Part shown: positions 18,169 through 46,253 of the stretch, piece by piece
How positions within the stretch are numbered: position 1 is the stretch's first letter
Layout of the letters: every line of letters starts with the position of its first letter
Assembly (NCBI GenBank): GCA_023150845.1
Contig: JAKLKD010000025.1
Location: 1-54,338, forward strand
Source: Myxococcota bacterium
Lineage (GTDB): Bacteria; Myxococcota_A; UBA796; CAJQPC01
Direction of reading: 5' to 3'
Length of the DNA stretch: 54,338 nucleotides
The notes under the pieces: model-generated
Told to the model about the DNA's origin: nothing
Database searches by the model: none
The model's input: only the letters and a program-made list of their open reading frames with translations
Position numbers and translations under genes: made by a program

Positions 18169-18231
18169 CCGGGGAGTGTACACCGCCTCTACGGGCCACG
18201 CCGGGCGCGCGGTTGCGCAGAGTCGGCGGGC

Positions 18232-24023: not shown

Positions 24024-25922
24024 TCAGTAGCTCACGAGGCTCGCGTCGCCCATGATCGTGCCGCCCAAGGCGTTGGGGCCCTCGTCCGCCGCCGAGGACT
24101 CGAAGCTCCAGTAGCCCTGGAGGTCGGTCTCGGTCCCGGTGAGCGCGCTGCACATCGTCGCCTGCACCTCGGCCTGGGTGCGCGCCGTCGTCCACAGCCG
24201 CACCTCGTCGAGCAGGCCCTGCCAGTCGTTCCAGGTCGAGCCGAGCTGCAGGTACGCCGGGGTGGTCACGTCCGCGGTCTGGAACTCCGTAGAGGTCGTG
24301 TAGCTGCCCGCGTCCTCGCCGTTGAAGTAGAACTGCACCGTGCCCGCGCTGCGGTCGCTCACGATGGCGATGTGAATCCACTCGCCGATGGCCATGCCCG
24401 CCGTGGAGGTGCCGGAGCCGCTGATGGGGCTCGTGCGCGCGGCGTTCCAGCCCGCCACCTCCATCTCCACCTTGCCCGTGCTCTCATAGATGTCGATGAC
24501 CCACCAGGGGTTCGAAGGGTAGCCGCCGTTGGAGTGGTTGAGCAGGCGGGCCTGCCCAGCGGCGTTGGGCCCGCTGAGGTGATCGGCGAGGGTCCAGAGC
24601 TCGAGGGTCCAGTCCCCGGTGCCCCAGGCCAAGGCGCTCGACGCCGCGACGTAGACGTAGTCATCGCTGCCGGGGAGATCCAGGGCCTTCACGCCCATGT
24701 CTCGCACCCCGTCGAGGTCGAGGTCCACGTCGATGATCTCGCCGTCGCAGTCGTTGTCTACGCTGTCACACAGCTCCACGGCGCCATCGTACACCGCGGC
24801 GTCGAGGTCGTCGCAGTCCGCGCCAGTGGCGGCGTCGCTGTCTTGGCCGTCGCCGTCTTGGTCATAGTCGCTGCCGCCGGAGCAGTCCTGGTCCACGCCG
24901 TCGTACCAGCTCTCCGCGGCGGCGGGGCTCACGCTGGCGTCGCCGTCGTCGCAGTCTCCGCCGACGATCGCCGTGCCCGAGGGCTGCACACAGGCGATCG
25001 AGACGTCGCCGTCATCCCCGTAGCCGTCGTTGTCATCATCGGCGGGGTAGGTCGTGGCGCTGCTGAGGTCGAGGCTGGGGTCGTCGTCGTCGATGAGGCT
25101 GTCGCAGTCGTTGTCGCGGCTGTCGCAGACCTCGCTGGCGTCGGGGTTCACCGAGGCGTCGCCGTCGTCGCAGTCCGTGGAGGAGGTGGCGTAGCCCGCG
25201 GTGAGGGCGCAGGCCTCGTCGGGGAAGTCCGGGTCGCCGTGACCGTCCGAGTCGCTGTCGCGGTAATAGGTCTTCGTCGCGCGCTCATCGACGGCGCCGT
25301 CGCAGTTGTTGTCGCGTTCGTCGCAGATCTCGATGCCGCTGGGGTTCACCGTCGCATCGCCGTCGTCGCAGTCCTCACAGGCCGCGAAGCTGTCCCCGTC
25401 GACGTCGGCGTAGCCCACGGAGCCGTCGCAGTTGTAGTCATTGGGATCAGCGCAGTCGGACTCTTCAGCGCCGGGGTTGTAGGCGGCGTCCCCGTCGTCG
25501 CAGTCCCCTGCGACTTCAGCGTAGCCCTCGGGGGTGGCGCAGGCGTCTTGGGTGTCGTCGTCGAGGCCGTAGCCGTCGCCGTCGCCGTCGCGGTGGTAGG
25601 TCGTCGTCACGCCCTCATCGATCGAGCCGTCGCAGTTGTTGTCGATCTCGTCGCAGGTCTCTACGGCGCCAGGGTAGGCGTTGGGATCGTTGTCGTCGCA
25701 GTCCTCATCTGCGCTCACGCCGTCGCCGTCGCTGTCAGTGGGCGCGCTGGAGTCCCCGCCGCCGGAGTCGTCGATGATCGAGTCCCCGCCGCCGGAGTCA
25801 TCGTCGCCGCCGCCGCTGTCCGCGCCGCTGTCTTGGCCCAAGAGCCCGGTCTCAGGGGTCTCAACGTCTTTTGTGCGACAGGCGATCAGCAGGAGGAGTA
25901 CGGGGAGGGTCTTGAGGCGCAT
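24024..25922 (-). CDS. Lipoprotein with MopE-type repeats and LamG-like domain
   Basis: A 632-residue lipoprotein with signal peptide ending LLLLIAC. A Gly/Asp/Ser-rich linker follows, then a series of MopE-type Asp/Cys units (DSDGDGVSADEDCDDND... CDEIDNNCDGSIDEG and six more), including one WYDGVDQDCSGGSDYDQDGDG unit like those in the 11.1-14.8 kb gene. The last 220 residues look like a concanavalin/LamG-type fold (DDYVYVAASSALAWGTGDWTLELW, IAIVSDRSAGTVQFYFNG, LLDEVRLWTTARTQAEV). Such domains bind carbohydrates or proteins. ATGATG follows GGAG; the second ATG has better spacing. It lies 48 nt after the DUF1501 gene and may belong to that transcript. Confidence 0.82.
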   Translation of the reverse strand: MRLKTLPVLLLLIACRTKDVETPETGLLGQDSGADSGGGDDDSGGGDSIIDDSGGGDSSAPTDSDGDGVSADEDCDDNDPNAYPGAVETCDEIDNNCDGSIDEGVTTTYHRDGDGDGYGLDDDTQDACATPEGYAEVAGDCDDGDAAYNPGAEESDCADPNDYNCDGSVGYADVDGDSFAACEDCDDGDATVNPSGIEICDERDNNCDGAVDERATKTYYRDSDSDGHGDPDFPDEACALTAGYATSSTDCDDGDASVNPDASEVCDSRDNDCDSLIDDDDPSLDLSSATTYPADDDNDGYGDDGDVSIACVQPSGTAIVGGDCDDGDASVSPAAAESWYDGVDQDCSGGSDYDQDGDGQDSDAATGADCDDLDAAVYDGAVELCDSVDNDCDGEIIDVDLDLDGVRDMGVKALDLPGSDDYVYVAASSALAWGTGDWTLELWTLADHLSGPNAAGQARLLNHSNGGYPSNPWWVIDIYESTGKVEMEVAGWNAARTSPISGSGTSTAGMAIGEWIHIAIVSDRSAGTVQFYFNGEDAGSYTTSTEFQTADVTTPAYLQLGSTWNDWQGLLDEVRLWTTARTQAEVQATMCSALTGTETDLQGYWSFESSAADEGPNALGGTIMGDASLVSY

Positions 25923-31064: not shown

Positions 31065-34000
31065 ATGAAGACCCGCACCGGACGTCGCGCGCTGCGCGCC
31101 GCCGCTTTGCCCGCGACCCCGCTCCTCGTCCTGCTGATGATGCCATCGGTCGTGAGCGCCGCGGGGGACGGCACGCTGACCGTCACCGCCTCAGGGACGG
31201 TCGTGAACGCCTACGCCGTCGTCGACCGCGACGTCAGCGCGGGCTCGACCTCGGTGCGGGTGAGCGACATCAACGACCTCGACTCCCCGGCCACGGGCAT
31301 CTTCGCGACGACGGACCTCGCCGCGGGGGACCTGGTCCTCATCGTGCAGATGCAGGGCGCGAGCTACACCTCGACGAACACGCTCAGCTTCGGCGAGGTC
31401 ACCGCGCTCAACGGCGCGGGCACCTATGAGCTCGCCGAGGTCGCGAGCATCTCCAGCCGCACGATCACCCTCTCCACCGCCCTGGTGAACGCTTACGACG
31501 CCGATGACCACGTTCAGCTCGTCCGGGTGCCCCGCTACGAGTCGGTGACGGTGAACTCCGGCGCCTCGATCACCGGCGAGCCCTGGGACGGCGACATCGG
31601 CGGCCTCGTCGTGATGAGCGTGAGCGGCGACCTCACCGTGAACGGCACCATCGACGCGAGCGGCATCGGCTTCCGCGGCGGCGTGGACGACAACTCCTCG
31701 GGCAGCACCTCCACCTCGACGGCCAACACCTACTACTACGACAACGCCGAGGCCGACGGCGGCGAGAAGGGGGAGAGCATCGGCGGCAGCGGCGACGACT
31801 ACGACGCCAACAACTGGCTCTATGGGCGCGGCGCCATCGCCAACGGCGGCGGCGGCGGCAACTCCCACAACGCCGGCGGCGGCGGCGGCGCCAACGGCGA
31901 CAACGGCCAGACCTGGACCGGCCAAGGCGTGATGAACACCGCCTCGGGCTGGAAGCTCGACCCCGGCTACATCGCCGCGGGCGGCCCCACGAACAGCTCC
32001 GGCGGCGGGCGCGGCGGCTACACCTACGGCGCCAACAACGCCGACGCCTTGACCGTCGGGCCGAGCAGCTCCTCCTGGGGCGGCGACGGCCGCGATGAGG
32101 TCGGCGGCCTCGGCGGTCGGCCTGTGGACCACGTCCCCCTCAACCGCCTCTTCCTCGGCGGCGGCGGCGGCGCGGGCGACGGCAACAACGGCTACGCGGG
32201 CGCCGGTGGCGCGGGCGGCGGCGCCGTGCTCCTGTTCGTGCAGGGTGACCTCACGGGCAGCGGCTCGGTGAACGTCGATGGTGAGGCCGGTGAAGACGCC
32301 GCGTCGAAGGGCCTCAACGGCCGCGACGGCCCCGGCGGCGGCGGCGCGGGCGGCAGCTTCATCCTCGTGGCCGACGGCGCCTCCGGGGTGAGCGTCTCGG
32401 CGGACGGCGGCGGCGGCGGCTACCAGTGGATCGCGAACAGCGAGTCCGAGGGCCCCGGCGGCGGCGGCGGCGGCGGCTACGTCGCGCTCCCCACGTCCGT
32501 CTCGCTCACGGTCACGGTCCTGGGCGGCGCGGGCGGCGTCACCGACAGCACCTCGGTCACCGAGTTCGTCGAGAACGGCGCCACCAACGGCGCCACGGGT
32601 GAGCAGGGCACGGCGCCGGACTACCTCGACTTCGGTCTGTGCATGTTCATCTCCTGCGACGCCGACGGCGACGGCCTCGACGACCTGGACGAGTCCGACC
32701 TCGGCACCGACCCCCTGGACGCCGACACAGACGGCGACGGGCTCAGCGACGGCGACGAGGTCAACACCATCGGCTCGGACCCCCTGGACACCGACACAGA
32801 CGCCGACGGCCTCGACGACGGCGAGGAGGTGAACACCGAGGGCACGGACCCCACCGACGCCGACACCGACGATGACGGCCTCGACGACGGCGAGGAGGTC
32901 AACACCTACGGAACCGACCCCCTGAACGAGGACACCGACGGCGAGGGCCTCAGCGACGGCGACGAGGTCAACACCTGGGGCACGAACCCCAACAAACGTG
33001 ACACAGACTCCGACGGCCTCTCGGACTACCGCGAGACGATCACTGAGGGCACCGACCCCAACGACACCGACACCGACGATGACGGCCTCGGCGACGCCGA
33101 CGAGGTCCGCACCTACGGCTCCGACCCCCTCGTCGTTGACACCGACGGCGACGGCTGCGGGGACGGCGACGAGGTCACCGCGGGCACCGACCCGACCGCC
33201 GCGGACACCGACGGCGACGGCCTCGGCGACTGTGAGGAGATCGCGGACGGCACGGACCCCACCGTGGGTGACAGCGACGGCGACGGCATCGACGACGGCG
33301 ATGAGATCGACCTCGGCACCGACCCCGCCGATCCCGACACAGACGGCGACGGCCTCGATGACGGCGACGAGATCGACCTCGGCACCGACCCCACGGACAC
33401 CGACAGCGACGGCGACGGCATCGACGACGGCGACGAGGTCAACAACACCGGCACCGACCCGGCCGACGCCGACACCGACGGCGACGGGCTGGACGACGGT
33501 GAGGAGCTCGACTCCGTCGGCACGGACCCGCTCAACCCCGACACCGACGGCGACGGCCTCGACGACGGTGATGAGCTCGACACCTGGGGCACGGACCCCA
33601 CCGACACCGACACCGACGATGACGGCCTGGAGGACGGCGACGAGGTCAACAACACCGGCACCGACCCCACGGACACCGACAGCGACGATGACGGCCTCGG
33701 CGACGGCGACGAGGTCAACACCATCGGCACCGACCCGGCGAACCCCGACACCGACGGCGACGGCCTCGACGACGGCGTCGAGGTCAACACCACCGGCACC
33801 GACCCGCTGGACACCGACTCCGACGATGATGGGCTGAGCGACGGCGACGAGGTGAACACCATCGGCACCGACCCGCTCGACGCCGACACCGACGATGACG
33901 GCCTCAACGACGGCGACGAGGTCAACGAGCACACGACCGACCCGCTCAACCCCGACAGCGACGATGACTTCTTGACCGACGGCCAAGAGGTCAACGAGAC

Positions 34001-34766
34001 GGGCACGGATCCCCTGGACGAGGACACCGACGACGGCGGGCGCAGCGACGGCGAAGAGGTCACCCGCGACGGCACCGACCCCTTCGATCCCTCGGACGAC
34101 GTGGCCGACAGCGACGACGACGGCCTCACCGACACGGAGGAGATCACCTTCGGCACGGACCCCGCCGACGCCGACAGCGACGATGACGGCCTGCTCGACG
34201 GCGAGGAGGTGTTTGAGGAGGAGACCGACCCGCTCAACCCCGACACCGACGGCGACGGCCTCGTGGACGGTGAGGAGGTGCTCACCGAGGGCACGGATCC
34301 GCTGGACACCGACAGCGACGACGACGGCCTCACCGACGGCGACGAGGTCCTGACCACGGGCACGGATCCCCTCAACCCCGACACCGACGGCGACGGCCTC
34401 ACCGACGGCGACGAGGTGAACACCATCGGCACCGACCCGCTGGACACCGACAGCGACGATGACGGCCTCACCGACGGCGACGAGGTGAACACCCACACCA
34501 CGGACCCCCTCGACGCCGACACCGATGATGGCGGCGTGCCCGACGGCCAAGAGGTGACGGACGGCACGAACCCGCTGGACCCCAGCGACGACGAGCCCGT
34601 CAGTGGTGACACCGGGGAGCCCGACGACACCGGGGACATCGTGGACGACGGCATCGGCCTGCCCAAGGGCGGCGGCGGCATCGCCTGCGCCACGAGCGAG
34701 GCGCCCACGGGCGGCCTGCTCGCGGGGCTCTTGGCCTTGGTCGGCCTCGCCCGGCGCCGTCGGTAG
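31065..34766 (+). CDS. Giant secreted TSP3-repeat protein with MYXO-CTERM-like tail
   Basis: A 1233-residue exported protein. The signal peptide ends near VVSAAG (about residue 32). The N-terminal 500 residues are beta-helix-like and very Gly-rich (GGGGGAGDG, GGGGAGGSF), as in large adhesins. Residues about 532-1175 are about 27 thrombospondin type-3 calcium-binding repeats of 23 residues (DTDGDGLDDGDEVNTIGTDP pattern). The C-terminus (IACATSEAPTGG, then LLAGLLALVGLA, then RRRR) fits a MYXO-CTERM-type sorting tail: Cys, transmembrane segment and Arg cluster. It should be exported and then anchored or released at the surface. GGAG lies 5-6 nt before the ATG. Confidence 0.88.
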   Translation: MKTRTGRRALRAAALPATPLLVLLMMPSVVSAAGDGTLTVTASGTVVNAYAVVDRDVSAGSTSVRVSDINDLDSPATGIFATTDLAAGDLVLIVQMQGASYTSTNTLSFGEVTALNGAGTYELAEVASISSRTITLSTALVNAYDADDHVQLVRVPRYESVTVNSGASITGEPWDGDIGGLVVMSVSGDLTVNGTIDASGIGFRGGVDDNSSGSTSTSTANTYYYDNAEADGGEKGESIGGSGDDYDANNWLYGRGAIANGGGGGNSHNAGGGGGANGDNGQTWTGQGVMNTASGWKLDPGYIAAGGPTNSSGGGRGGYTYGANNADALTVGPSSSSWGGDGRDEVGGLGGRPVDHVPLNRLFLGGGGGAGDGNNGYAGAGGAGGGAVLLFVQGDLTGSGSVNVDGEAGEDAASKGLNGRDGPGGGGAGGSFILVADGASGVSVSADGGGGGYQWIANSESEGPGGGGGGGYVALPTSVSLTVTVLGGAGGVTDSTSVTEFVENGATNGATGEQGTAPDYLDFGLCMFISCDADGDGLDDLDESDLGTDPLDADTDGDGLSDGDEVNTIGSDPLDTDTDADGLDDGEEVNTEGTDPTDADTDDDGLDDGEEVNTYGTDPLNEDTDGEGLSDGDEVNTWGTNPNKRDTDSDGLSDYRETITEGTDPNDTDTDDDGLGDADEVRTYGSDPLVVDTDGDGCGDGDEVTAGTDPTAADTDGDGLGDCEEIADGTDPTVGDSDGDGIDDGDEIDLGTDPADPDTDGDGLDDGDEIDLGTDPTDTDSDGDGIDDGDEVNNTGTDPADADTDGDGLDDGEELDSVGTDPLNPDTDGDGLDDGDELDTWGTDPTDTDTDDDGLEDGDEVNNTGTDPTDTDSDDDGLGDGDEVNTIGTDPANPDTDGDGLDDGVEVNTTGTDPLDTDSDDDGLSDGDEVNTIGTDPLDADTDDDGLNDGDEVNEHTTDPLNPDSDDDFLTDGQEVNETGTDPLDEDTDDGGRSDGEEVTRDGTDPFDPSDDVADSDDDGLTDTEEITFGTDPADADSDDDGLLDGEEVFEEETDPLNPDTDGDGLVDGEEVLTEGTDPLDTDSDDDGLTDGDEVLTTGTDPLNPDTDGDGLTDGDEVNTIGTDPLDTDSDDDGLTDGDEVNTHTTDPLDADTDDGGVPDGQEVTDGTNPLDPSDDEPVSGDTGEPDDTGDIVDDGIGLPKGGGGIACATSEAPTGGLLAGLLALVGLARRRR
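32658..34593 (+). repeat. About 27 tandem 69-bp coding repeats (TSP3 units)
   Basis: The repeat unit encodes about 23 residues with the core D-D-DGL-DGDEV-T-GTDPL. Several units are 22 residues and one near the end is longer (FDPSDDVADSDDDGL). Asp at fixed positions fits the calcium-binding loops of thrombospondin type-3 repeats. Unlike the 138-bp array, unit length is not constant and units are more diverged. Confidence 0.9.
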
Positions 34767-35558: not shown

Positions 35559-35776
35559 TCAACCTCCTGCGACGTGCTTGATGCACCGTAGCACCCAGCA
35601 AGCGGTCGTCCTTCCGCCCTTGAAGAAGCGCCGGTTCAACTTGGGATCTTCGGCGTGGCGGTCGCGCCGTGAGCTTGCCCACCCCGGCGCGAGGCCAACG
35701 CAGCGCGGTTGTTGCCTCCGCCGCGGCCCCGCGCCCTGTACACTTGGGGCCGCACCTCCACCCCCGGCAGGACGCC

Positions 35777-37576
35777 TTGGCGCGGCAGCCCCTCCTCATC
35801 ACCCTCATCGTCGTGGTCGCCCTCGCGGCGCTGGTGCGGGGCTGGGCGGCCCTCTGGTTCTTGTGTGACGACGCCTTCATCACCTTCCGCTACGCGGCGA
35901 TGGCGCGGCTCGGCCACGGCTACGTCTGGAACCCGCCGCCGATGCCCCCGGTGGAGGGCTACACCAGCGCCGCCTGGCTGTGGCTCCTGCACGGGCTCTG
36001 GGCGCTCACCGGGCGGCCGCCACCCCAGACCGCGAACAACGTCTCGCTGATCTGCGCCGGGATCACCGTCGGGCTTACGGCCTGGGCGACCCTTCGCGCC
36101 CAGCTCTCCGAGGGCCTCGCGCCGTATCGCCTCGCCGTGCTCACCTTGACCTTAGGCGCGCTCGTGACCCACCGGGGCTTCTTGGTGTGGTCGTCGAGCG
36201 GCTTAGAGACGGCCCTGTTCGTGAGCCTCGTGACGGCCTGGGCCGTCGTGACCGCCCGGGAGGGCCGGGGCCCGGTGATCGGCGCCTTGGCCGCGGCGAT
36301 CGCCCTCACCCGCCCCGACGGCTACCTCTTCGTGGCCGCCACCGTCGCCCTGCTCGGCCTGCGCGCCCTGCGGGGAGAGGGCGCCCGGGCCCTCGCCTTG
36401 GGCCTCGCCCCCCTCGCCGCCGTGCTCGCCCATGTGTTGTGGCGGCGGCTGACCTATGGCGCCTGGCTGCCGAACACCTTCGCGGCGAAGGTCGGCGCAG
36501 CCTGGCCCGAGGCGGGGCTGCCTTACCTCGCCTGGTTCGTCCTGGAGTACGCCTTGTGGAGCTGGCCCCTGGCGCTGCTCGCGGCGCTGCGGCGCTGGCG
36601 GCCCGGCCCCGGCGCCCTCGCCGTGGGGCTCACGCTCTTGGGGCAGCTCGGGTACTACACCCTCAAGGTCGGCGGTGACCACTTCGAGTTCCGCGTCTTC
36701 ACCCACCTCGCGCCCCTCGTCGCGCTCACAACACCTTTGTTGTTAGACCGCGCCGGGCTACGACCGGCCTGGACCTTGGCCCTGAGCGCCTTGGCCTGGG
36801 CCTTGGCCCTGCCCTTGCCTTGGGCGGAGCACCAGCTCGCCCAGAGGCAGACGACGATGGTGGCCGTGCGGGCGGGGCCCAAGCTCGGCGAGGCCCTGCC
36901 CGGCCCGCTGCGCCCCCTCGGCCTGGCCTGGGACCACCTGCGGGACCAGCTCGCGCCCCAGCTCATCGGCCTGCGGCACCGGGAGCACCAGCTCTTCGCC
37001 GAGCTGCAGCTCCGGCTCACCCCGGGCCTCGACGCCTCCCGCCCGGCGACGATGGGCGGCGACGTGGTCGTGGTGCGGCGTGTAGACGGCGGCTTTCGCC
37101 TCGACCCCAGCGCCGACGCCCGGCCCCTCCTCGCCGCGCGCCCGGCGGTGGACGTGGGCACCGTCGGCGTCATCGGCTGGGCCCTGCCCTCCCTGCTCGT
37201 GCTCGACAGCCTGGGGCTCAACGACCCCGTCGTCGCGAGGCTCGGCGCCCACGTCACCCCCCGGCGTATGGCCCACGAGCGCCGCCCGCCGCCGGGCTAC
37301 ATCGAGTGCTTTCAGGCCAACGTCACCTTCGGCGTCGCCGTGGAGGACAGCACCACCGGGGCGCTTGTGGACGTGATGAGCCACCCCCAAGGTTACCGCG
37401 AGCGCCTGGACCTCAGCGCCCCGGGCCTGCCCCTGCCGCCGCGCTGGGCGGGGAAGCCGGGGCTCCGGGCGCGGGCCGTCGTCTTGCTGCTGGAGCGGGA
37501 GGCGCCGCTCACCGAGGCCGATCTCGCCCGCTGCGCGGCTTGGGGCGCCGAGGAGGGCTCAGGCCCAGCGCCGTGA
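35777..37576 (+). CDS. GT-C-fold glycosyltransferase, AftB-like membrane protein
   Basis: A polytopic membrane protein of about 600 residues. LCDDAFITFRYAAMARLGHGYVWNP followed by VEGYTSAAWLW is the characteristic N-terminal loop of AftB-type GT-C transferases, with the DD pair as the likely catalytic acids. WSSSGLETALF, TRPDGYLF and YGAWLPNTFAAKVG are also typical, as is the C-terminal DSLGLNDPVVARLG in the periplasmic domain. These enzymes use polyprenyl-phosphate sugars. TTG 35777 (AGGA 4 nt upstream) starts just before the first helix; the frame is open to GTG 35669. The 3' end overlaps the convergent esterase gene by 18 bp. Confidence 0.8.
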   Translation: MARQPLLITLIVVVALAALVRGWAALWFLCDDAFITFRYAAMARLGHGYVWNPPPMPPVEGYTSAAWLWLLHGLWALTGRPPPQTANNVSLICAGITVGLTAWATLRAQLSEGLAPYRLAVLTLTLGALVTHRGFLVWSSSGLETALFVSLVTAWAVVTAREGRGPVIGALAAAIALTRPDGYLFVAATVALLGLRALRGEGARALALGLAPLAAVLAHVLWRRLTYGAWLPNTFAAKVGAAWPEAGLPYLAWFVLEYALWSWPLALLAALRRWRPGPGALAVGLTLLGQLGYYTLKVGGDHFEFRVFTHLAPLVALTTPLLLDRAGLRPAWTLALSALAWALALPLPWAEHQLAQRQTTMVAVRAGPKLGEALPGPLRPLGLAWDHLRDQLAPQLIGLRHREHQLFAELQLRLTPGLDASRPATMGGDVVVVRRVDGGFRLDPSADARPLLAARPAVDVGTVGVIGWALPSLLVLDSLGLNDPVVARLGAHVTPRRMAHERRPPPGYIECFQANVTFGVAVEDSTTGALVDVMSHPQGYRERLDLSAPGLPLPPRWAGKPGLRARAVVLLLEREAPLTEADLARCAAWGAEEGSGPAP

Positions 37577-38308
37577 GAAGTGGTGGTTGATCTGGCGTTT
37601 CCACCAGCTCCAGTGGTGCGCCGAGTCATGGCCCCACACGTCACGCTCATGGGGGATGTGCTTCTGGGCGAGCAAAGACGCCATGGTGAGGGTCTCCTCG
37701 ACGCAGCCGCCCTCATGGGGGCCCAGGCCCACGACCAAGGTGAGGCTCGTGTTGCGCCGCACCCGGTCCAGGGCCTCGCCGCTCATGTTCGGCACATACG
37801 CAACGGGGTGGTTGTAATACACGTCGAGGTCGCTGTAGCCGCCCAAGAAGCGGTCCGTGCGGTAACGGCCCGAGAGGCAGAGCGCCCACTGGAAGATCTC
37901 GGGGTGCTTGAGCGCCATGTTCGCGGCGTAGAACGCGCCGAGGCTGCACCCCACGGCGCTCACGCGGATCTCGGGGCTCTGGCAGTCTTGGCGGATGTAG
38001 GGGACGAGCTCGTCGATGACGAAGCGCTCGTAGGCCTGGTGGCGGGCGACCCGCACGCGGGGGTCCTCGTCGCGGCGGCTCCAGCTCTCGGAGCAGTTCG
38101 TCTCCGGGCAGTAGAGCTTGATGCGCCCGGCCTCGATGAGGGGCCGCAGGGTGTCGATGGCGCTCGCGGCTTGCCACTCGTGGGCCATGCCGGACGCGCT
38201 GGGGAAGATGATGACGGGGTCGCCCCACCAGCCATACGTCCACATATGAACGCGGCGGTTGAGGGAGCGGCTGGGGAGCTGTTGGTAGCGGGCGTTGAGC
38301 ATCTGCAT
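37559..38308 (-). CDS. Alpha/beta-hydrolase esterase family protein
   Basis: A 249-residue cytosolic esterase-like protein. The nucleophile elbow is GCSLGAFYA, and WGDPVIIFPSASG near the N-terminus is the oxyanion-hole strand-loop. The C-terminal HDSAHHWSWWKRQI holds the likely catalytic His, and an Asp/Glu lies in GPHEGG. It resembles the putative esterase/EstD-like group of short proteins without a signal peptide. ATG 38308 and a second ATG at 38302 are both possible. The Nma111-like protease gene ends 40 nt upstream on the same strand. Confidence 0.82.
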   Translation of the reverse strand: MQMLNARYQQLPSRSLNRRVHMWTYGWWGDPVIIFPSASGMAHEWQAASAIDTLRPLIEAGRIKLYCPETNCSESWSRRDEDPRVRVARHQAYERFVIDELVPYIRQDCQSPEIRVSAVGCSLGAFYAANMALKHPEIFQWALCLSGRYRTDRFLGGYSDLDVYYNHPVAYVPNMSGEALDRVRRNTSLTLVVGLGPHEGGCVEETLTMASLLAQKHIPHERDVWGHDSAHHWSWWKRQINHHFSRRWA

Positions 38309-38348: not shown

Positions 38349-41216
38349 TCAGGGCGCGGCGCTCGGCGTCGGCGCGGGGGCGTCCTCCCGACGCCAGCCC
38401 TCCCCGTCCACAAACACGAAGCGCTGGGTAGGCCAATAGGCAAGATCGAGCTTCAAGGTCTTCACCTCGGTCTTGTCCTCTAGGTCTACGAGGGTCAGGC
38501 GCACGGCGTCGCGGTCCTGCTTGTTGTTCACCACGGCCAAGAACGAGGCGAGATCGGGGGTGGGCTGGCCGTCGACCTCGATGATCCGCCGCGTGGGGCG
38601 CAGGCCGTAGCGGTGCGCCGGGCTGCCGTACCAGAACCAGGTGACGTAGACCCCCTCGGGCTCGAAGCCGCGCTGGGAGGCGACCTCCAGGTGCGGGGCG
38701 TGCAACAACATGCCCGCCCACGACACTACCTCGGTGACCCCTTGGCCGCTGAGGCTCGTCGTCTCGACGACGAAGTTTTGCTCCATGCCGTCGCGGAACA
38801 CGGTCAAGGTGACCGAGCCGGCCTGGCAGAGCGCCTCGACCTCATCAAAACGGGTCACCACCTCTTGGTTCACGGCGAGGAGGAGATCCCCGCCCTTGAG
38901 CGCCGCCGCCGCCGGGGTGCCCGCGGTGAGGCGCCCGACGTAGAGCACCTGGCCGCCGGTCTGATCGTGGGCCTGGAGGCGGTCGAGCCAAGGCTCGGGC
39001 AGGCCGCGGTCCCGGGCGTCCGCCAGGGGCAGGCCGTAGAGCTCCACGCCCAAGGAGCGGTAGCTGACCTCCTCACCGGCCTGCAGAGGCTCCACGACGC
39101 TCTGGGCGACCTCGATGGGCAGGCCATAAAACGCCGAGCTGCGCCCGCCGCCCTCGCTCGACGCGAAGGACGCCCAGGTGGCGACCACCCGGCCGCGGCG
39201 GTCGGTGATCGCCCCGCCCACAGACGACAGGCCGTCGCTGAGCGTGAAGATCTCCTGGTTGGCCTCGCGGAAGCTCGGGGGGTCGGGCAAGGGCAGGTAG
39301 AGCGGCGTCACCCGGCCCACCCGGGCGCGCTGGGAGACGACCTGGTGGCTGCCGGTGAGGCCCACCTGGGTTAGCTTGTCGCCGGGCTTGATCTCTTTGT
39401 CGCGCAGCCGGGCGCTCTTGACCGGCGTGGCGCCGATGTCCGCCGGGTCGTACTTCACAACGGCGACGTTGTGCAGCGGGTGGATGCTGACGATCTCCCC
39501 GGGCACCCGTAAGGAGCCCCCGAAGGTCAGCTCCAGCTCACCCAGGCCCACGGGCACGGTGTCACGGTCCACCACGACGAGGCCCCGCTCGGCGTCGACG
39601 ATGATCCCGGCCCCGGTGAAGCGGGTGCTGCTCACGCCCTCGGTGCGGTAAGGCACACGGTACTCGACCATCACCAGAGACCGGCTCAGCCGCCGCTGGG
39701 CGCGGCCGCCGCTGCGCACGAAGCTCGCCTCCCCGGCGGCCTCGGCGAGGGGTTTGGTCGGCGCGGGGCTCGGGGTGCAGGGCCAGCCGCCGGTCAGGTC
39801 GTCGCGCACGCAGCGCTGCATCGGGAACCACAGGCGGTCCACCTGAATCACGGCGACCTGGTCCTGGCGGGGGTCTTGAATGGGGAAGTACCGCACGGGC
39901 ACCCGGGCGCCGTGGGGGTGGGCGGCCAAGGCGGCCTCGACCTCCTCCAAGGTGGACACGGGCAGGCCGTCAATCGCCGTGAGGATCGCCCCCTCGGGGA
40001 TGCCGCCCTCGGTGAGCGCGTAGCCCGTCGCCGCCACATAGACGCCCTTCACCGGGACGCTGTGGTTGCGGGCCTGGTGGTAGCTCAGCTCATTGAGGAT
40101 GCCGCCGCCGAACTCCAGGTAAGCGTCGGGGCTGATGCTGTGCAGGTCGCCGACGCTCAGCGGCACGGTCAAGGTCTGCCCGCCGCGCTCGACGGTGAGG
40201 GTGACCTCGGCGCCTACCCGCTCATCGAGGCGGGCCTCCAGGGGCACGAAGGCGTTGAGGGGGACCCCATCGACGGCGAGGAGCACGTCGCCGGGGCGCA
40301 GCTTGCCGTCCGCCGGGCCGCCGGGCACCACCTCCGACACCACGAGGAGCCCCGTGCCGTCGGGGAAGCCCGCGCGCACCTCCGTCTCGCTCTTCTCCGA
40401 GAGGCCCAGGCGGCGCAGCTCGTCATAGGGCGCGTGGAGGAACACCGTCTGTAGGGTGCCGCGGGTGACGGGCTGCCCGGCCTGGATGAGCGCCAGGGCG
40501 CGCACGACGCGGTCGAGCGGCAGGTAATAGCTCGACGCGGCGTTGCGGCGGCCGCCCGCGTTCAGCGCGACGACCTTGCCCGAGAGGTCGAGCACCGGGG
40601 AGCCCGAGGAGCCCCCGGAGGTGCCCGAGGCGGCCTGGATGTAGAAGGTGTTGAAGTCGTTGTAGGTGTTGTCGCCATAGACCGGCGCCTCGCGGTCCAG
40701 CCGAGCCAAGGTGCCGTCGAGGATGCTGATCTTCTCTCCGGCGTCGTTGCCCACCACCCGCACGTTGACGCCCACCTTGGCCCCGGCCGGGTCCAGCGTG
40801 AGGGGCTTGACCTCCATAAACCGCACCGCGGAGGGGTCGAAGCGGTAGAACCCGAAGTCGTGCACCGGGTCGCGGTAGACGGCCTGGAGCGGGATCTCCT
40901 CGTGGTTGTACAGCACGGCCTCAGCGACGACGGGCCCGGCGTGCACCATGTGCCGGTTGGTGAGGATGAGCCCCCGCTCGGCGTCGACGATGAACCCCGT
41001 GCCCACCGACGACGAGGCCGCCTCGGTGTCGAAGCTGCGGGTGCCCACCACCCGGATGGCCACCACGGAGGGCACGGCCGCCTCTAAGGTGGCCTTCCAC
41101 AGATCCGCCTCAGGCGGCGGCGGCGCCGGGGCCTCGGCGGGCGGCCGACCCTTGGACTGCGCGAAGGCGAGAGAGGGAGCGGCGAGGAGGGCGAAGAGGA
41201 CGATCAGAGCGCGCAT
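38349..41216 (-). CDS. Nma111/DEG7-type double serine protease with PDZ domains
   Basis: A 955-residue exported protein with signal peptide MRALIVLFALLAAPSLAFAQ. The first trypsin-like domain has an intact triad: His89 (LTNRHM), Asp120 (VHDFGF), Ser204 (GGSSGSPV). PDZ-like regions follow at about 270-355 and 365-440. The second protease domain (about 505-700) is degenerate: the three positions read Asp552 (VDRDTV), Asn583 (LHNVAV) and Val666 (SSVGGA). Two more PDZ-like regions end the protein. Order and many exact motifs (VRVVGNDAGEKISIL, TYNDFNTFYIQAA) match yeast Nma111 and plant DEG7 as I remember them. It probably acts in the periplasm. AGGGGG lies 4 nt before the ATG. Confidence 0.88.
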   Translation of the reverse strand: MRALIVLFALLAAPSLAFAQSKGRPPAEAPAPPPPEADLWKATLEAAVPSVVAIRVVGTRSFDTEAASSSVGTGFIVDAERGLILTNRHMVHAGPVVAEAVLYNHEEIPLQAVYRDPVHDFGFYRFDPSAVRFMEVKPLTLDPAGAKVGVNVRVVGNDAGEKISILDGTLARLDREAPVYGDNTYNDFNTFYIQAASGTSGGSSGSPVLDLSGKVVALNAGGRRNAASSYYLPLDRVVRALALIQAGQPVTRGTLQTVFLHAPYDELRRLGLSEKSETEVRAGFPDGTGLLVVSEVVPGGPADGKLRPGDVLLAVDGVPLNAFVPLEARLDERVGAEVTLTVERGGQTLTVPLSVGDLHSISPDAYLEFGGGILNELSYHQARNHSVPVKGVYVAATGYALTEGGIPEGAILTAIDGLPVSTLEEVEAALAAHPHGARVPVRYFPIQDPRQDQVAVIQVDRLWFPMQRCVRDDLTGGWPCTPSPAPTKPLAEAAGEASFVRSGGRAQRRLSRSLVMVEYRVPYRTEGVSSTRFTGAGIIVDAERGLVVVDRDTVPVGLGELELTFGGSLRVPGEIVSIHPLHNVAVVKYDPADIGATPVKSARLRDKEIKPGDKLTQVGLTGSHQVVSQRARVGRVTPLYLPLPDPPSFREANQEIFTLSDGLSSVGGAITDRRGRVVATWASFASSEGGGRSSAFYGLPIEVAQSVVEPLQAGEEVSYRSLGVELYGLPLADARDRGLPEPWLDRLQAHDQTGGQVLYVGRLTAGTPAAAALKGGDLLLAVNQEVVTRFDEVEALCQAGSVTLTVFRDGMEQNFVVETTSLSGQGVTEVVSWAGMLLHAPHLEVASQRGFEPEGVYVTWFWYGSPAHRYGLRPTRRIIEVDGQPTPDLASFLAVVNNKQDRDAVRLTLVDLEDKTEVKTLKLDLAYWPTQRFVFVDGEGWRREDAPAPTPSAAP

Positions 41217-41310
41217 ACCACCCCCTTAGCCGCAACGGGGCGAGGTCGCCACGGGGGGTTTTGGCCTCTTGTGCGGGAGCTGTCCGAGGGGCGCGAAGGC
41301 GCGGCGGCGC

Positions 41311-41991
41311 TCAGCGTTGAGGCCCCTGCGGCGGGCTCACCGGGGTGAACTGAAGGTCGAACCAGAAGGAGCGAGGGTCGTCGTCGCAGGCGTCCTCGGC
41401 GGGCATGACCCGCTCGTCGGGGCCGCCGACGATGTGGAAGATCTGCGCCTCGTAGTCTTCGTTGTCGGGGGTGGGCAGGGGGAAGTCGCCGATGAGGCTC
41501 ATTGTCCAGTTGAGGTCGGGGGCTTGGAGCTGGTCGGGGAGCAAGAAGAGCACGTCTTCATCCCGACCTCTCCAGGTAATTCGCTCCAGCTTGACGTAGT
41601 CGGGGATTACCTCTGGCTCAATCGTGAGGCCAAAGTATAGTCCACAGTCATAGCCTCGACGCCGAAGGCCACCGGCAGGGTAAAGCGCGCGCTCTGCTGA
41701 TGTCCTGTAGTGAAATCTTTCGTAAGTATTTACATAAAGCTCCCGAAATTCACCCGCGGAATCAAAAATTCGTGAGTCATTTGAATCCCAATCGTATAAC
41801 CACGAGTCTGGTCGAACAAACAGCGCCCCGTCTTGGCCGTCGCTCAGTTCATAGGGCAGCGTGGAGCACTTGCTGGGGCAAGGAGTCTGTAGCTCAATCA
41901 CGTCCACTTGGTAATACAGGTTGGGAAGATACACTGGGCAGTCACAACACCCCGCCAAACCAAGGGCGGGCAGCAGGGCGAGGGCGCGCAT
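41311..41991 (-). CDS. Tandem lipoprotein paralogue 4 of 4
   Basis: A 226-residue lipoprotein, the last gene of a four-member tandem family. The signal peptide is MRALALLPALGLAGC. The shared core is VIELQTPCPSKC near the mature N-terminus, then a divergent centre, then SLIGDFPLPTP, FHIVGGPDE and a terminal FWFDLQFTPVSP. The start at 41991 follows GGAG by 6 nt; an in-frame ATG at 42021 overlaps the previous stop but would place that site inside the coding region. Its centre (41570-41860) is much less GC-rich than the flanks. Function is unknown; the paired Cys (CPSKC) suggest a disulfide. Confidence 0.72.
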   Translation of the reverse strand: MRALALLPALGLAGCCDCPVYLPNLYYQVDVIELQTPCPSKCSTLPYELSDGQDGALFVRPDSWLYDWDSNDSRIFDSAGEFRELYVNTYERFHYRTSAERALYPAGGLRRRGYDCGLYFGLTIEPEVIPDYVKLERITWRGRDEDVLFLLPDQLQAPDLNWTMSLIGDFPLPTPDNEDYEAQIFHIVGGPDERVMPAEDACDDDPRSFWFDLQFTPVSPPQGPQR

Positions 41992-42017
41992 CGTAGGCTC
42001 CGGTGAGGGGATGAGGG

Positions 42018-42641
42018 TCATAGAGCACCGTAGGGTTTGAGCGGGGTGTACTGGAGGTCAAACCAGAACGCCCGTGGGTCATCGGTGCAGGTCCAGCGAT
42101 CTACCTCGATCGGGTCGTTGGGGCGGCCCACGATACGGAAGGTGGCCTCCTCGTAAGCTGGATCGTACTCAGCCTTGGGGAGCGGAAACTCTCCTATCAA
42201 CTCTAGGGTCCAGGAGTCTGCGAGCTCGGGTTGGGCTTGCCAATCCAGCCTCATGAAAGACTCCCATCCGCTGAAACGTCCTGATTTGCTCAGGTCCACC
42301 CAAGACGGTGAGCTATCGGGAAAAACCTGCATCCCGAACCGCAGACGACAGAGATCAGAGCCGACACCCAAATCCGAACTCGGAACGACAATCGCCAACT
42401 CACGGGCGGATAAGTCGGAGTCCTGAAGTCCAGACTCATATGGCGAAAAGAACAACTCCAGGCCAGGCCACAGAATTGGCTCACCGCACCGCCGCGAACA
42501 AGGCGATTGAAACTCCAACACTCTAACTTCGTACAACAGCGTGTTGGGCCCCATAGGAGCCGTCTGAAACTCCGAGATACAAGAAGGGGCGAGCGGCAGA
42601 CCACAGGCGATGAGCACGGCAAGGAGCGTTGGGGCTCGCAT
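42018..42641 (-). CDS. Tandem lipoprotein paralogue 3 of 4
   Basis: A 207-residue lipoprotein, signal peptide ending LPLAPSC. It has the same family motifs: VLEFQSPCSRRC, LRFGMQVFPD, WTLELIGEFPLP, FRIVGRPNDP and FWFDLQYTPLKPYG. Both ends are almost identical in DNA to the neighbouring paralogue at 42668-43291 (a constant offset of 650 bp), whereas the middle differs strongly. The start is the ATG 6 nt after GGAG; an upstream ATG at 42671 overlaps the previous stop. No homologous family was recognised. Confidence 0.72.
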   Translation of the reverse strand: MRAPTLLAVLIACGLPLAPSCISEFQTAPMGPNTLLYEVRVLEFQSPCSRRCGEPILWPGLELFFSPYESGLQDSDLSARELAIVVPSSDLGVGSDLCRLRFGMQVFPDSSPSWVDLSKSGRFSGWESFMRLDWQAQPELADSWTLELIGEFPLPKAEYDPAYEEATFRIVGRPNDPIEVDRWTCTDDPRAFWFDLQYTPLKPYGAL

Positions 42642-42667
42642 CGTCGGCTCCGGTGAGTGGGTGGGGG

Positions 42668-43291
42668 TCATGGAGCACCGTAGGGTTTGAGCGGGGTGTA
42701 CTCGAGGTCAAACCAGAACGCCCGTGGATCATCGGTGCAGGTCCAGCGGTCCACCTCGATGGGGTCGTTGGGGCGGCCCACGATACGGAAGGTGGCCTCC
42801 TCGTAAGCTGGATCGTACTCAGCCTTGGGGAGCGGAAACTCTCCTATCAACTCTAGGGTCCAGGAGTCTGTGAGCTCGGGTTGGGCTTGCCAATCTATTG
42901 CCACGAACGATTCCCACTCGTCGAACCGCCCCGGCCTACTGAGGTCCACCCACAGCGGTGCCTCATCGGGAAGGATCTGCATCCCGAACCTCAAGCGACA
43001 GGAGTCGGAGTTTGTGCCCAACCCAGAGCTTGGTACGCCGATTTTCAGATCGGGTTCTGAGATGTCTGAATCGTGCAACCCAGAATCGTCCGGCAACACT
43101 GACAATACCAGACTGTACCACAAATAAGGCTCGGCACATTTGCGGGGACATGGCGACTGAAACGCAAGAACGTCAATACTATAGCGTAAGGTTTCAACTC
43201 CATTTGGAGGCGCTACTGGCTCCGAGATACAAGAAGGGGCGAGCGGCAGACCACAGACGATGAGCACGGCGAGGAACTTTGGGGCTCGCAT
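42668..43291 (-). CDS. Tandem lipoprotein paralogue 2 of 4
   Basis: A 207-residue lipoprotein of exactly the same length as the gene at 42018-42641. The signal peptide ends LPLAPSC. Motifs are VLAFQSPCPRKC, LRFGMQILPD, WTLELIGEFPLP and FWFDLEYTPLKPYG. The middle third is AT-richer and diverged from its neighbour, while flanking DNA is nearly identical. An upstream in-frame ATG at 43321 overlaps the previous stop. The GGAG ribosome binding site, 6 nt upstream, favours 43291. Confidence 0.72.
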   Translation of the reverse strand: MRAPKFLAVLIVCGLPLAPSCISEPVAPPNGVETLRYSIDVLAFQSPCPRKCAEPYLWYSLVLSVLPDDSGLHDSDISEPDLKIGVPSSGLGTNSDSCRLRFGMQILPDEAPLWVDLSRPGRFDEWESFVAIDWQAQPELTDSWTLELIGEFPLPKAEYDPAYEEATFRIVGRPNDPIEVDRWTCTDDPRAFWFDLEYTPLKPYGAP

Positions 43292-43317
43292 CGTCGGCTC
43301 CGGTGAGAAGGAGGTGA

Positions 43318-44052
43318 TCATCCGCCGTAGGGATTGAGCGGGATGAAGCGAAAGTCGAAGCTGAGCGAGCTCAGGTCGCCTGTGCAGGAGTCGGGGTCGG
43401 GCTCGACGTACTCGTCGGGAGTGCCGATGATGTGGAAGTCTTGTTGGAGGTACTCCGTGAGGTCTTCGCCTCGGGCGGGTATGATGGGCACGTCGCCGAC
43501 AAGCTCGATGCTCCAGCCTGGGGTCTCAGGGCGTCCGCCAGCGTCAGTCTGCATGTTGATCACGGAATCCCACCTGCGCCAGCTAACTCGTTGACTTAGA
43601 GCCAAGAAGTCCACCATGTTGTCCGGTTGCAGCGTGGCACCAAACTGCAGCAGACAGTCAACATGGCGCCCAGGATTGTAATAATCCGATGTGTAATAGT
43701 CCGATGTGTAGTAGATTGCTTTCGGATATTCATCGAGTCCAGTTTCTGGATTCGCAGTATCGTAGGCTTCCGTGGTCGCAAACAACATAAATTGCTCATC
43801 GGAGTTGTGTTCAGGTAGGGTCGTGCAGGCTTCTGGACACGGCGAACGAAACTCCACCACCTCGACTCGAAAGGGCGGACCTAAGACGGGCGTAGACTCA
43901 CACGAGCTGCTCAGAAGAGCAAGAATCGCCAGCGCCACGACCCGGGCGAGACGACCGCGCCGCCGCTTGCCGAGCCCCGCCCCGCCCAGCCCAGACAAAG
44001 GCAAGCGCCGCAGACGCTGCGAGGTTGGGGCAATCAGCGCTCGTGTTGGCAT
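43318..44052 (-). CDS. Tandem lipoprotein paralogue 1 of 4 (promoter-proximal)
   Basis: A 244-residue lipoprotein heading the tandem set. It has a long basic N-region (RLRRLPLSG, KRRRGRLARVV) before the hydrophobic ALAILALLSSSC lipobox. It shares VVEFRSPCPEAC, SIELVGDVPIIP, FHIIGTPDEY and a terminal FDFRFIPLNPYG with the others. A short local repeat, YYTSDYYTSDYYN, is encoded in the AT-richer centre. AGGAG lies 6 nt before ATG 44052, so the long start is real for this copy. The next gene's upstream ATG overlaps its stop by 4 nt. Confidence 0.74.
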   Translation of the reverse strand: MPTRALIAPTSQRLRRLPLSGLGGAGLGKRRRGRLARVVALAILALLSSSCESTPVLGPPFRVEVVEFRSPCPEACTTLPEHNSDEQFMLFATTEAYDTANPETGLDEYPKAIYYTSDYYTSDYYNPGRHVDCLLQFGATLQPDNMVDFLALSQRVSWRRWDSVINMQTDAGGRPETPGWSIELVGDVPIIPARGEDLTEYLQQDFHIIGTPDEYVEPDPDSCTGDLSSLSFDFRFIPLNPYGG

Positions 44053-44139
44053 CGGGCTCTCCTAAGGGGTCCACTCAGGCTTGCACAGCTTTTGAGCACT
44101 GTCAACCAAACCCGAAGAGCCCGCCACCTCCGCCCTCCC

Positions 44140-44508
44140 CTACCCCCAATCCGTCCGCGCCCAAGTCATCACGTCGCCCTCGGGCGGGCACTCGATCTTC
44201 AGCGTCGGCGTGCCGTTGTCGTCATACGTCGTCGCCGCGCCCTCGTTCGGCTGGAAACACTCAATCAGGCCCTCAGCGGGGTCGCCGTAACACCAGAACA
44301 CGCCCTTGAGGGTCTGTCCGGGGTAAATCGGCGTGTTCAGGGCGCTGCCCGGCGCGCAGGCCGCCATGTGGGACTCTCGGGCCTGGCCGTCGGGGATGGG
44401 GTCGGGCAAGGAGGTGTCGACGCAGGCGGGCTCATCACAGGAGGCGAAGGGCAGGACGAGGAGGGGCAGGAGTTGTTGTCGTCCGCGGGGGCGGTGCGGG
44501 CCTCCCAC
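44140..44508 (-). CDS. Small lipoprotein overlapping the GT87-like gene
   Basis: A protein of about 122 residues with a basic N-region and lipobox LLPLLVLPFASC. The mature part has evenly placed cysteines (DEPACVD, MAACAPG, VFWCYGD, LIECFQP, LKIECPP), typical of a small disulfide-bonded envelope protein. It looks like a real gene, yet its first 172 nt overlap the end of the membrane-protein frame on the same strand. GTG 44508 is the likely start. The frame is open to ATG 44547, and neither has a good ribosome binding site. Confidence 0.55.
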   Translation of the reverse strand: MGGPHRPRGRQQLLPLLVLPFASCDEPACVDTSLPDPIPDGQARESHMAACAPGSALNTPIYPGQTLKGVFWCYGDPAEGLIECFQPNEGAATTYDDNGTPTLKIECPPEGDVMTWARTDWG

Positions 44509-46253
44509 AGAAACCAGGCGATCATCAGGAGGCTGTACATCGCGCACAGTCGGCCCAGCCAGCCCATGTGGATCACACGGAACTCGCTGGTCTCATCGTT
44601 CTGCTGCAGGGCGTTGAGGGCCACCTCGATGCCGAACAGGAAGATGAGGCCAACGGCGTTGCGCAGACGGCTGAGGTCGCCCGCGTGGGTGACGATCATG
44701 GTGCTGCGCACGATGTAGTAGTAGTAGCTCGCCGTGGTCAACAAGAAGAAGGGGATGAAGCCCATGGACAGGGCCTCGTGGTCTTTGGCCCGGCGCAGGC
44801 CCCAGCCGAGCAGGAGCACCAGGGCGAAGGCCAGGGGGTTTCGCCACACCTTCTGGTTCTTGACGCGCATCCGGCGCACGTCGTCCATTCGTTTGACGTC
44901 GGTCTCACCCTGGTAGGCCACGGCGATGGCGAAGCCTTGGCGCATCGACGAGAGGTTCTTCTCGGTGGTGTGGGTGAGCAGCTTCTCGACGTGCCAGATC
45001 GCCCGGCCTGGGCCGTACTTCACCGCCACGGCGCCGTAGAGCAGGGCGAGGCAGGCCACGAAGCCGAGCGCGATTTGGAGCAGGCCCCGGTTGATCCGCC
45101 GCAGAGAGAGAAGCTCCCACAGGCCCTTCATGCCCGGGCCGTAGAGCCACACCGCCGGGAACAGCCGGAAGGCCGCGCCTACGCCCACGGCCGCGCCCGC
45201 CCAGCCGGGCAGGCCCCGCTTGAGCAGGCCCACGGACATGATCAGCACGGCCACATAGTCGTCGCGGCCAAAGGCCCAGGTGTAGGTGGGCCAGCGGGCG
45301 CTGTAGGTGGTGAACAGGAAGATGACCAGAAACAGGGCCGTGGGGCCGCCAAAGGCCCACCAGGTCACGGCGACGGCGAGGCTCAGCCAGATAAGGTCGA
45401 TGTAGCCGAGGAGCTTCACGGACTCGACGGGCACGGCGTTCGCCAGGGGCTCGGCGAAGACCACCCAGGCCGGGGAGCCGTTGAAGCCGTGGTCCCACAA
45501 CATCTGAATCCAGAGGTCGTTGGTGAACCCGACCATCTCGCGCTGCAAGTAGATGAAGTCGTGTTTGAACGCCGCCCAGCGCTCGGGGCCAAACTTGGCG
45601 CGGATGCGGTCGTGCCACTCCTTGTCCCGGGCGAAGGCCTGGGTGTCGACCATGTAGTAGTCTTCTTCGTTCTGGGTCTGGAAGGTGGGCGGCTGGCGGC
45701 GGTAGTGGCGGCCCTCCTCCAGATCTGCGAGCACGATGGCGGGGTAGAGGTCGAAGTAGCCCAGCTCTTTGTAGTACTTGGAGTTCAGGTAGTAGTGGCT
45801 GAGGTCGTAGGTGTCGACGCGCTCCACCCAGACATAGGTGCTGTCCAGGCGTGAGTAGTTGAGGAAGCTCAAGGTGGCGATTAGGCCGAGGCCCAGGGTG
45901 ATGGCGCCTCGGGCCCGGGCGGCGAGGGCGTTGGCCTTGGGCTCCAGGTGCCGGTGCCAGAGATAGGTCAGGGCGGCGAGGAGCGCGGCGCCCCCGGCGA
46001 GCCAGATCTTGTTGACCTCGGTGTCGTCGCGGTGCAGGGGCTTCGCGCCGCCGCGGGCGAGGTCCACGACGATGAGCAGGGCGGCGAGGCCCGCCAAGGT
46101 GGCGAAGGTGCCCAGCACCCGGGCGGCCAGGGGCTGCTGCTTGCGGTCGAGGCCGAGGCCCGCCGCGCCGAGGGTGAGGGCGATGAAGAGGGCGATGAGG
46201 GCGTGGTGCCACGCGGCCTCAAGGGCCGGACCAGGAGCGAGGGGGAAGAGCAT
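44337..46253 (-). CDS. GT87-like (DUF2029) membrane glycosyltransferase
   Basis: A polytopic membrane protein of up to 638 residues. TYTWAFGRDDYVAVLIMSVG and then GAAVGVGAAFRLFPAVWLYGP, followed by WHVEKLLTHTTEKNLSSMRQG, fit the mannosyltransferase-type GT87/DUF2029 family, which uses polyprenyl-phosphate mannose. An acidic pair in a periplasmic loop is usual for GT-C enzymes. The last hydrophobic helix ends near SLLMIAWFLWEARTAP. The remaining 45 residues are Pro/Ser-rich and coincide with the overlapping small lipoprotein gene, so they may be a run-on rather than real protein. It is divergent from the 820-residue lipoprotein gene. Confidence 0.75.
   Translation of the reverse strand: MLFPLAPGPALEAAWHHALIALFIALTLGAAGLGLDRKQQPLAARVLGTFATLAGLAALLIVVDLARGGAKPLHRDDTEVNKIWLAGGAALLAALTYLWHRHLEPKANALAARARGAITLGLGLIATLSFLNYSRLDSTYVWVERVDTYDLSHYYLNSKYYKELGYFDLYPAIVLADLEEGRHYRRQPPTFQTQNEEDYYMVDTQAFARDKEWHDRIRAKFGPERWAAFKHDFIYLQREMVGFTNDLWIQMLWDHGFNGSPAWVVFAEPLANAVPVESVKLLGYIDLIWLSLAVAVTWWAFGGPTALFLVIFLFTTYSARWPTYTWAFGRDDYVAVLIMSVGLLKRGLPGWAGAAVGVGAAFRLFPAVWLYGPGMKGLWELLSLRRINRGLLQIALGFVACLALLYGAVAVKYGPGRAIWHVEKLLTHTTEKNLSSMRQGFAIAVAYQGETDVKRMDDVRRMRVKNQKVWRNPLAFALVLLLGWGLRRAKDHEALSMGFIPFFLLTTASYYYYIVRSTMIVTHAGDLSRLRNAVGLIFLFGIEVALNALQQNDETSEFRVIHMGWLGRLCAMYSLLMIAWFLWEARTAPADDNNSCPSSSCPSPPVMSPPASTPPCPTPSPTARPESPTWRPARRAAP

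Follow-up and report, generated by a model that had tools for sequence, protein, structure and literature searches.

Lipoproteins of the Tli family provide envelope immunity against lipases delivered by type VI secretion and are found in tandem copies. Three reports describe TipC lipoproteins as conserved at start and end, variable in the centre and recombining among tandem paralogues (PMC9484751), TilA as an immunity lipoprotein of a copy-variable tandem family that was first described as antigens (PMC10730906), and the tandem csa1 surface lipoproteins of S. aureus as varying in copy number by recombination (PMC7360770). The array of lipoprotein-like genes described here, from a Myxococcota genome, appears to be a new, genus-restricted case of this known kind of evolving gene cluster, and its protein family appears itself to be new. 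Our literature search found no description of the family, although this does not show that it is unpublished.

Organization of the array and its genomic context

The window, i.e., the whole 54,338 nt stretch of DNA that was analysed, belongs to a draft genome of 7.13 Mb (444 contigs, 95.7% complete). The ORF listing identifies at positions 41311-44052 four intact lipoprotein-like genes, named A to D, arranged head to tail on the minus strand (Table 1). This agrees with the initial annotation, which had also given the two middle genes an equal length and a 650 nt offset; as ORFs, each of the two comprises 217 codons. Adjacent ORFs of the array overlap by 4 nt (ATGA). A better start is found for B, C and D ten codons inward (207 codons for B and C), after a GGAG sequence and within a 20-nt junction motif. 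The same locus, with the same flanks, is present in the sister species MAG.430 (JAKLKE010000012.1; G001), a fragmented draft of ~840 contigs, where it carries three genes (a, b and c). By pattern matching, the junction motif occurs at the three junctions of the window and at the two of MAG.430 and is absent elsewhere in either stretch. A scan for promoters and terminators was uninformative (one promoter-like site for 0.6 expected and four terminator-like sites for 2.6).

Table 1. Position of the array genes, their segments and the immediate neighbours in the window.
Feature	Position	Strand	Basis and remarks
Gene A	43318..44052	-	First of array; 244-codon ORF; putative signal peptide, lipobox LSSSC; family profile match
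Gene B	42668..43321	-	Likely start 43291 (MRAPKFL..); RBS-like GGAG within junction motif
Gene C	42018..42671	-	Likely start 42641; length as B, offset 650 nt
Gene D	41311..42021	-	Last of array; likely start 41991; lipobox GLAGC
Junction motif TCACCGGAGC[CT][GT]ACGATGCG before B	43287..43306	-	Pattern match
Junction motif before C	42637..42656	-	Pattern match
Junction motif before D	41987..42006	-	Pattern match
Diverged centre of B	42894..43219	-	Two-breakpoint scan vs C (41%); GC3 0.59
Diverged centre of C	42244..42569	-	Two-breakpoint scan; GC3 0.61
Diverged centre of D vs MAG.430 gene c (40%)	41516..41946	-	Two-breakpoint scan; GC3 0.56
Constant 3′ block of B (97% identical to C)	42668..42893	-	Alignment and breakpoint scan
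Constant 3′ block of C	42018..42243	-	Alignment and breakpoint scan
3′ end of D and downstream sequence, 96-99% identical to MAG.430	41311..41515	-	Alignment and breakpoint scan
Downstream neighbour, PDZ-containing trypsin-like protease (955 aa)	38349..41216	-	Pfam Trypsin_2, PDZ; 96% aa vs MAG.430
Upstream neighbour, membrane protein, no Pfam family	44337..46253	-	98% aa vs MAG.430 over 578 residues

The genes neighbouring the array are 92-96% identical between the window and MAG.430. Other neighbours are an esterase-like protein (37559-38308; 97% aa identity to MAG.430) and a GH127-like protein with a sub-cut-off score. No toxin gene was recognised among the neighbours, and a search of the own genome gave no homologue of the family outside the array, leaving no further one to pair with a toxin. 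A small ORF upstream of A (44140-44547; L011 8754-9104) has a lipobox-like FASC sequence and is conserved in MAG.430, and the end of the upstream membrane protein gene differs by ~90 nt between the two species. Part of 24870-25755 has dozens of matches in the MAG.430 genome (65-78% DNA identity) and represents a domain or gene family repeated widely there, and 31065-34766 codes a 1233-aa protein with many Asp-rich D-D-G-L-D-G-E repeats that is conserved in MAG.430.

Over the syntenic segment (13.6-51.4 kb), 32 of 252 chunks of 300 nt have less than 60% identical bases. They form two main clusters, the array and 35.65-37.0 kb, the others being single chunks or the synteny end. A 635-aa membrane-protein ORF is found at 35669-37576; its MAG.430 counterpart (L011 15042-15572) has lost a large internal part, which leaves an ORF of 176 aa. 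A DDE_Tnp_1 transposase gene (MAG.430 L011 675-1817) lies at the end of synteny near 51.2 kb.

The array is known from two genomes, one per species, so that the comparison is between species. Copy number, four in the window and three in MAG.430 (two fragmented drafts of one genus), differs between relatives as had been anticipated; the picture of a fixed copy number with uniform divergence along the genes, which the initial annotation had set against its own proposal, does not describe the locus, where divergence is non-uniform. A search with gene B of 93 genomes (the own one and relatives) returned matches only in the own genome (G000) and MAG.430. Profile searches found the family in 2 of the 63 genomes of the order and, among the matches listed (best 8 candidates per genome), in 2 of the 377 genomes of the phylum. 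The GTDB 220 genomes, searched by pattern and possibly without the own records, gave one locus, that of MAG.430. There were no family matches in viral contigs, nor in plasmids searched with gene D only. In G002 and G003, which belong to the same taxonomic family but not to this genus, the protease gene is present with no array beside it. The family is genus-restricted in the genomes searched.

Constant ends and diverged centres

A strongly diverged centre between almost identical ends had been proposed for B and C, and a two-breakpoint scan bears this out: ORF nucleotides 103-428 (326 bp) have 41.4% differences, against 4.9% outside, with a maximum χ2 of 122.9 that none of 300 shuffles reached (largest, 22.5). 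The pair D/c is organized likewise, 40% of the centre sites differing versus 3% elsewhere (0/300 shuffles). D and c occupy the same place and agree at both ends (98% and 97% DNA identity), which makes them one gene; their centres are 61% identical, a value that barely exceeds those of D/b (60%) or b/c (57%). Centre DNA identity is 57-61% for D/c, D/b, b/c and B/C while their 3′ blocks are 79-97% identical; since the centres are alike to this degree whatever the 3′ block identity, their divergence is decoupled from that of the ends. Near-identical ends are found for B/C within the window and for D and c across species. A common C-terminus had been noted for all four genes; near-identity there is limited to B/C (and to D against c), the 3′ blocks of the other window pairs being 35-43% identical in amino acids. 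Gene A and its counterpart a have the first ~30 codons in common, at 71% DNA identity.

Such a pattern might be produced by short-read metagenome assembly mis-joining near-identical repeats or mixing strains: both drafts are fragmented, the MAG.430 title reads “..._cov_5.024819” and B and C have an exact run of 109 nt in common. We hold an artefact of this kind to be very improbable, as two separate assemblies agree on architecture, intact frames, junctions and flanks, and the diverged centres are unique sequence that anchors the copies.

The centres are AT-richer, as had been noted, and this is mainly found at third codon positions. GC3 is 0.54-0.66 for the centres overall (0.55-0.61 for those of B-D) versus 0.92-0.94 for the flanking genes, with whole-gene values of 0.66-0.69 for A-D. 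Most other listed ORFs of the window have a GC3 of 0.8-0.97; the few with lower values (0.74-0.79) partly have a doubtful frame with high position-1 GC and partly lie near the contig end. GC at codon positions 1 and 2 is ordinary (0.54-0.55 in the array vs 0.54-0.60), and the depression is thus mostly synonymous. Third positions of the array are GC-poor in both species, which would fit repeated import or long residence outside the host codon habits.

The ends of B/C have a dS of 0.05-0.08, whereas the pS of their centre is 0.80; for B/C and D/c together, dS is 0.05-0.09 in the ends and 1.1-1.4 or saturated in the centres. The four flanking genes analysed have a dS of 0.15-0.36 and a dN/dS of 0.06-0.12. 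Low-dS ends beside a centre with saturated dS point to separate histories of ends and centre, by conversion, exchange or import. This contrast does not arise from protein-level selection acting on one history. The low end dS and the sharp breakpoints support the earlier proposal that gene conversion or recombination holds the ends alike, and import to the centre, also put forward there, agrees with the low centre GC3 and with the saturation of dS there.

The segment-wise dN/dS of the centre is 0.31-0.41 for D/c, D/b and b/c and is not computable for B/C and A/a, in which dS is saturated. Positive selection in the centre, the other force invoked initially, was rejected: no centre segment with computable dS reached a ratio above 1. 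The ratio of 1.19 at the short 5′ end of B/C is based on a single synonymous change and three others, which are too few to rely on; at the 5′ end of A/a it is 0.99. Because the divergence is synonymous too, exchange of old alleles explains it better than positive selection, which a variable centre need not imply. The centres resemble alleles, old or imported, that were swapped between common ends, rather than the outcome of fast point mutation.

The genome does carry a reverse transcriptase gene, on another contig, and a diversity-generating retroelement that targets the centres was considered. It was rejected on its mismatch spectrum, and we give this source almost no credence: the 135 mismatches of the B/C centre comprise 67 at third positions and 78 A/G or C/T transitions, A is involved in 67 of 135 and not in nearly all, and the window contig has no reverse transcriptase match.

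Relaxed constraint would offer another account, in which a dispensable tandem family drifts in its centre, with occasional conversion of the ends and no selection for variety. The centre dN/dS of 0.3-0.4, higher than in the four flanking genes, and the low GC3 are in its favour, and recombination could equally act in a neutrally drifting family. We regard it as unlikely, for all seven copies are open and conserve four Cys besides the lipobox Cys, and relaxed protein constraint alone does not yield centres saturated at synonymous sites next to flanking genes of such limited dS.

Synonymous divergence in the flanks drops toward both edges of the array island (Spearman 0.637 across 49 bins, a value that none of 97 rotations equalled or exceeded), and the lowest two of these bins adjoin or nearly adjoin it. 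This test was run without the array bins and without four low bins (18000-19800) whose ORFs look wrong-frame; when the four are restored, the correlation is 0.391, a value reached by 9 of 105 rotations. The dip, a hint of homogenization, is suggestive only, because it hinges on dropping doubtful bins.

The array very probably evolves by recombination between common blocks. The blocks would be the 3′ ends of the genes, their junctions and the signal-peptide start that follows each junction; they would allow copy gain, loss and conversion, and the central coding segment of ~110-140 codons would be exchanged as a cassette. Similar ends around divergent middles are also known from gene families in which recombination exchanges binding domains.

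Predicted proteins and the question of surface variation

All seven copies have a Cys at the place expected for the end of a putative signal peptide. LAPSC, the lipobox of B and C, is an unusual form, presumably further from the canonical motif than the lipoboxes of A and D. The seven copies have five invariant Cys, the lipobox Cys and four more. The Cys-pair motif first described as SPCP--C in all four genes keeps its Cys but not its letters: it is [ST]PC[PS]xxC, with SPCSRRC in C and TPCPSKC in D. The array proteins are probably small, disulfide-bonded lipoproteins and would be lipid-anchored in the envelope. Pfam, NCBIfam and PADLOC give no family above its cut-off; a Pfam scan of the seven copies at E up to 1 returned just two families, each in a single copy: DUF6225, below cut-off, and Toxin_35, at E 0.092. 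The best PDB sequence match by profile is a kinase (E 0.17).

The model of mature B, built from 7 sequences, is a mostly beta domain (pLDDT 76, pTM 0.77); that of gene c was poor (pLDDT 64) and was left out. The DNA-variable part corresponds to residues 5-113 of the B model, several strands included, and length changes are mainly found in a low-confidence region (~residues 33-76). Foldseek searches against the PDB and viral models had no match at E 0.001 or better; TipC is not among the matches listed, which is evidence neither way. In a structural second look the B model is best matched by small beta lipoproteins of the LpqH type (PDB 4zjm), with Z 6.0 and an rmsd of 3.5 over 99 residues, at 4% identity and with a Z below 8 that possibly reflects just a common arrangement; lipocalin-like barrels rank below. 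The central half of this single beta-rich domain may set binding specificity.

Variable surface lipoproteins, with a centre exposed on the outer membrane and diversified in response to phages or predators or for kin recognition, would match the same mosaic and copy-number evidence, end recombination supplying the variants. The predicted lipoproteins with invariant Cys, and a precedent in csa1, whose surface lipoproteins change in copy number by recombination (PMC7360770), also agree with this reading. It nevertheless seems to us rather doubtful. The centre dN/dS is below 1 and the divergence extends to predicted core strands: the B/C centre differs at 21 of 54 strand/helix residues and at 26 of 55 loop residues, contrary to the expectation that it be limited to exposed loops. 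Switching of the kind known from variable antigens, to which the array had been likened, was not borne out either, since every copy is open, the own genome (at the completeness given above) has no silent cassettes elsewhere and 41200-44150 has no inverted repeats; silent cassettes and inversion were rejected as candidates. In M. xanthus, sorting is reported to follow +2 Lys (inner membrane) and +7 Ala (extracellular matrix) (PMC3222651). The first residue is found in none of the seven copies and the second in one (B), and that rule places the array proteins nowhere in particular.

Immunity and comparison with known systems

A type VI secretion sheath gene is present in 2 of the 63 genomes of the order, the two that bear the array. 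VipA, VipB, TssF and VgrG-like genes are present in the own genome, as are a PAAR-like toxin domain and TsiV, an immunity gene with a GC3 of 0.61. The type VI genes are located on other contigs than the array; the cluster with the PAAR-like toxin domain and the TsiV gene is at L037 404-10272. As both genomes are of one genus, this co-occurrence counts as one evolutionary event and is a lead, not a test.

The best explanation overall, to which we give a probability of roughly 0.4, is that the recombining array codes immunity lipoproteins against toxins delivered to the periplasm by rivals; its copies would bind and neutralise the varied toxins of competing strains. The recombination mechanism joined to a TipC-like immunity repertoire may be credited with 0.35 to 0.4. 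No linked toxin is recognised, and Pfam, NCBIfam and PADLOC give no function, both of which weigh against immunity. A repertoire of immunity-type envelope binding lipoproteins is favoured over phase-variable antigens with moderate confidence. Immunity is the likeliest of several functions, and the evolutionary mechanism is well supported. The fuller proposal, that this is a new Myxococcota family of envelope immunity lipoproteins whose central half-domain is traded between lineages via the ends, changing the shield against type VI effectors of rivals, is conceivable though unlikely. If our best explanation holds, an uncultured Gram-negative lineage shares a mode of evolution that has been documented for immunity and surface lipoproteins of Gram-positive bacteria, in an unnamed protein family with clear recombination blocks that could be followed by population sequencing.

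The array differs from the Tli systems in that no Tle-type lipase is recognised beside it. TipC of Streptococcus (type VII secretion; PMC9484751), the nearest known parallel, resembles it by tandem non-identical paralogues, a lipoprotein signal, conserved end blocks, a variable centre, predicted recombination and variable copy number. TipC, however, comes from Gram-positive bacteria and its genes sit at the TelC toxin locus, while the array has no recognised adjacent toxin, and no sequence relation is seen between the two. The lpl/csa1/TilA lipoproteins of S. aureus (DUF576, to which none of the seven copies has a Pfam match) are also tandem lipoproteins that change in copy number by recombination, with a unit spanning two adjacent genes and one member acting in immunity (PMC10730906). 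Their common block of ~130 nt lies in the gene centre (PMC9484751), whereas the blocks of the array are at the gene ends. Tandem non-identical copies, blocks combined with a variable region, and copy-number variation, which characterize recombining tandem paralogue clusters of the TipC/EsaG/lpl type, are all found in the array.
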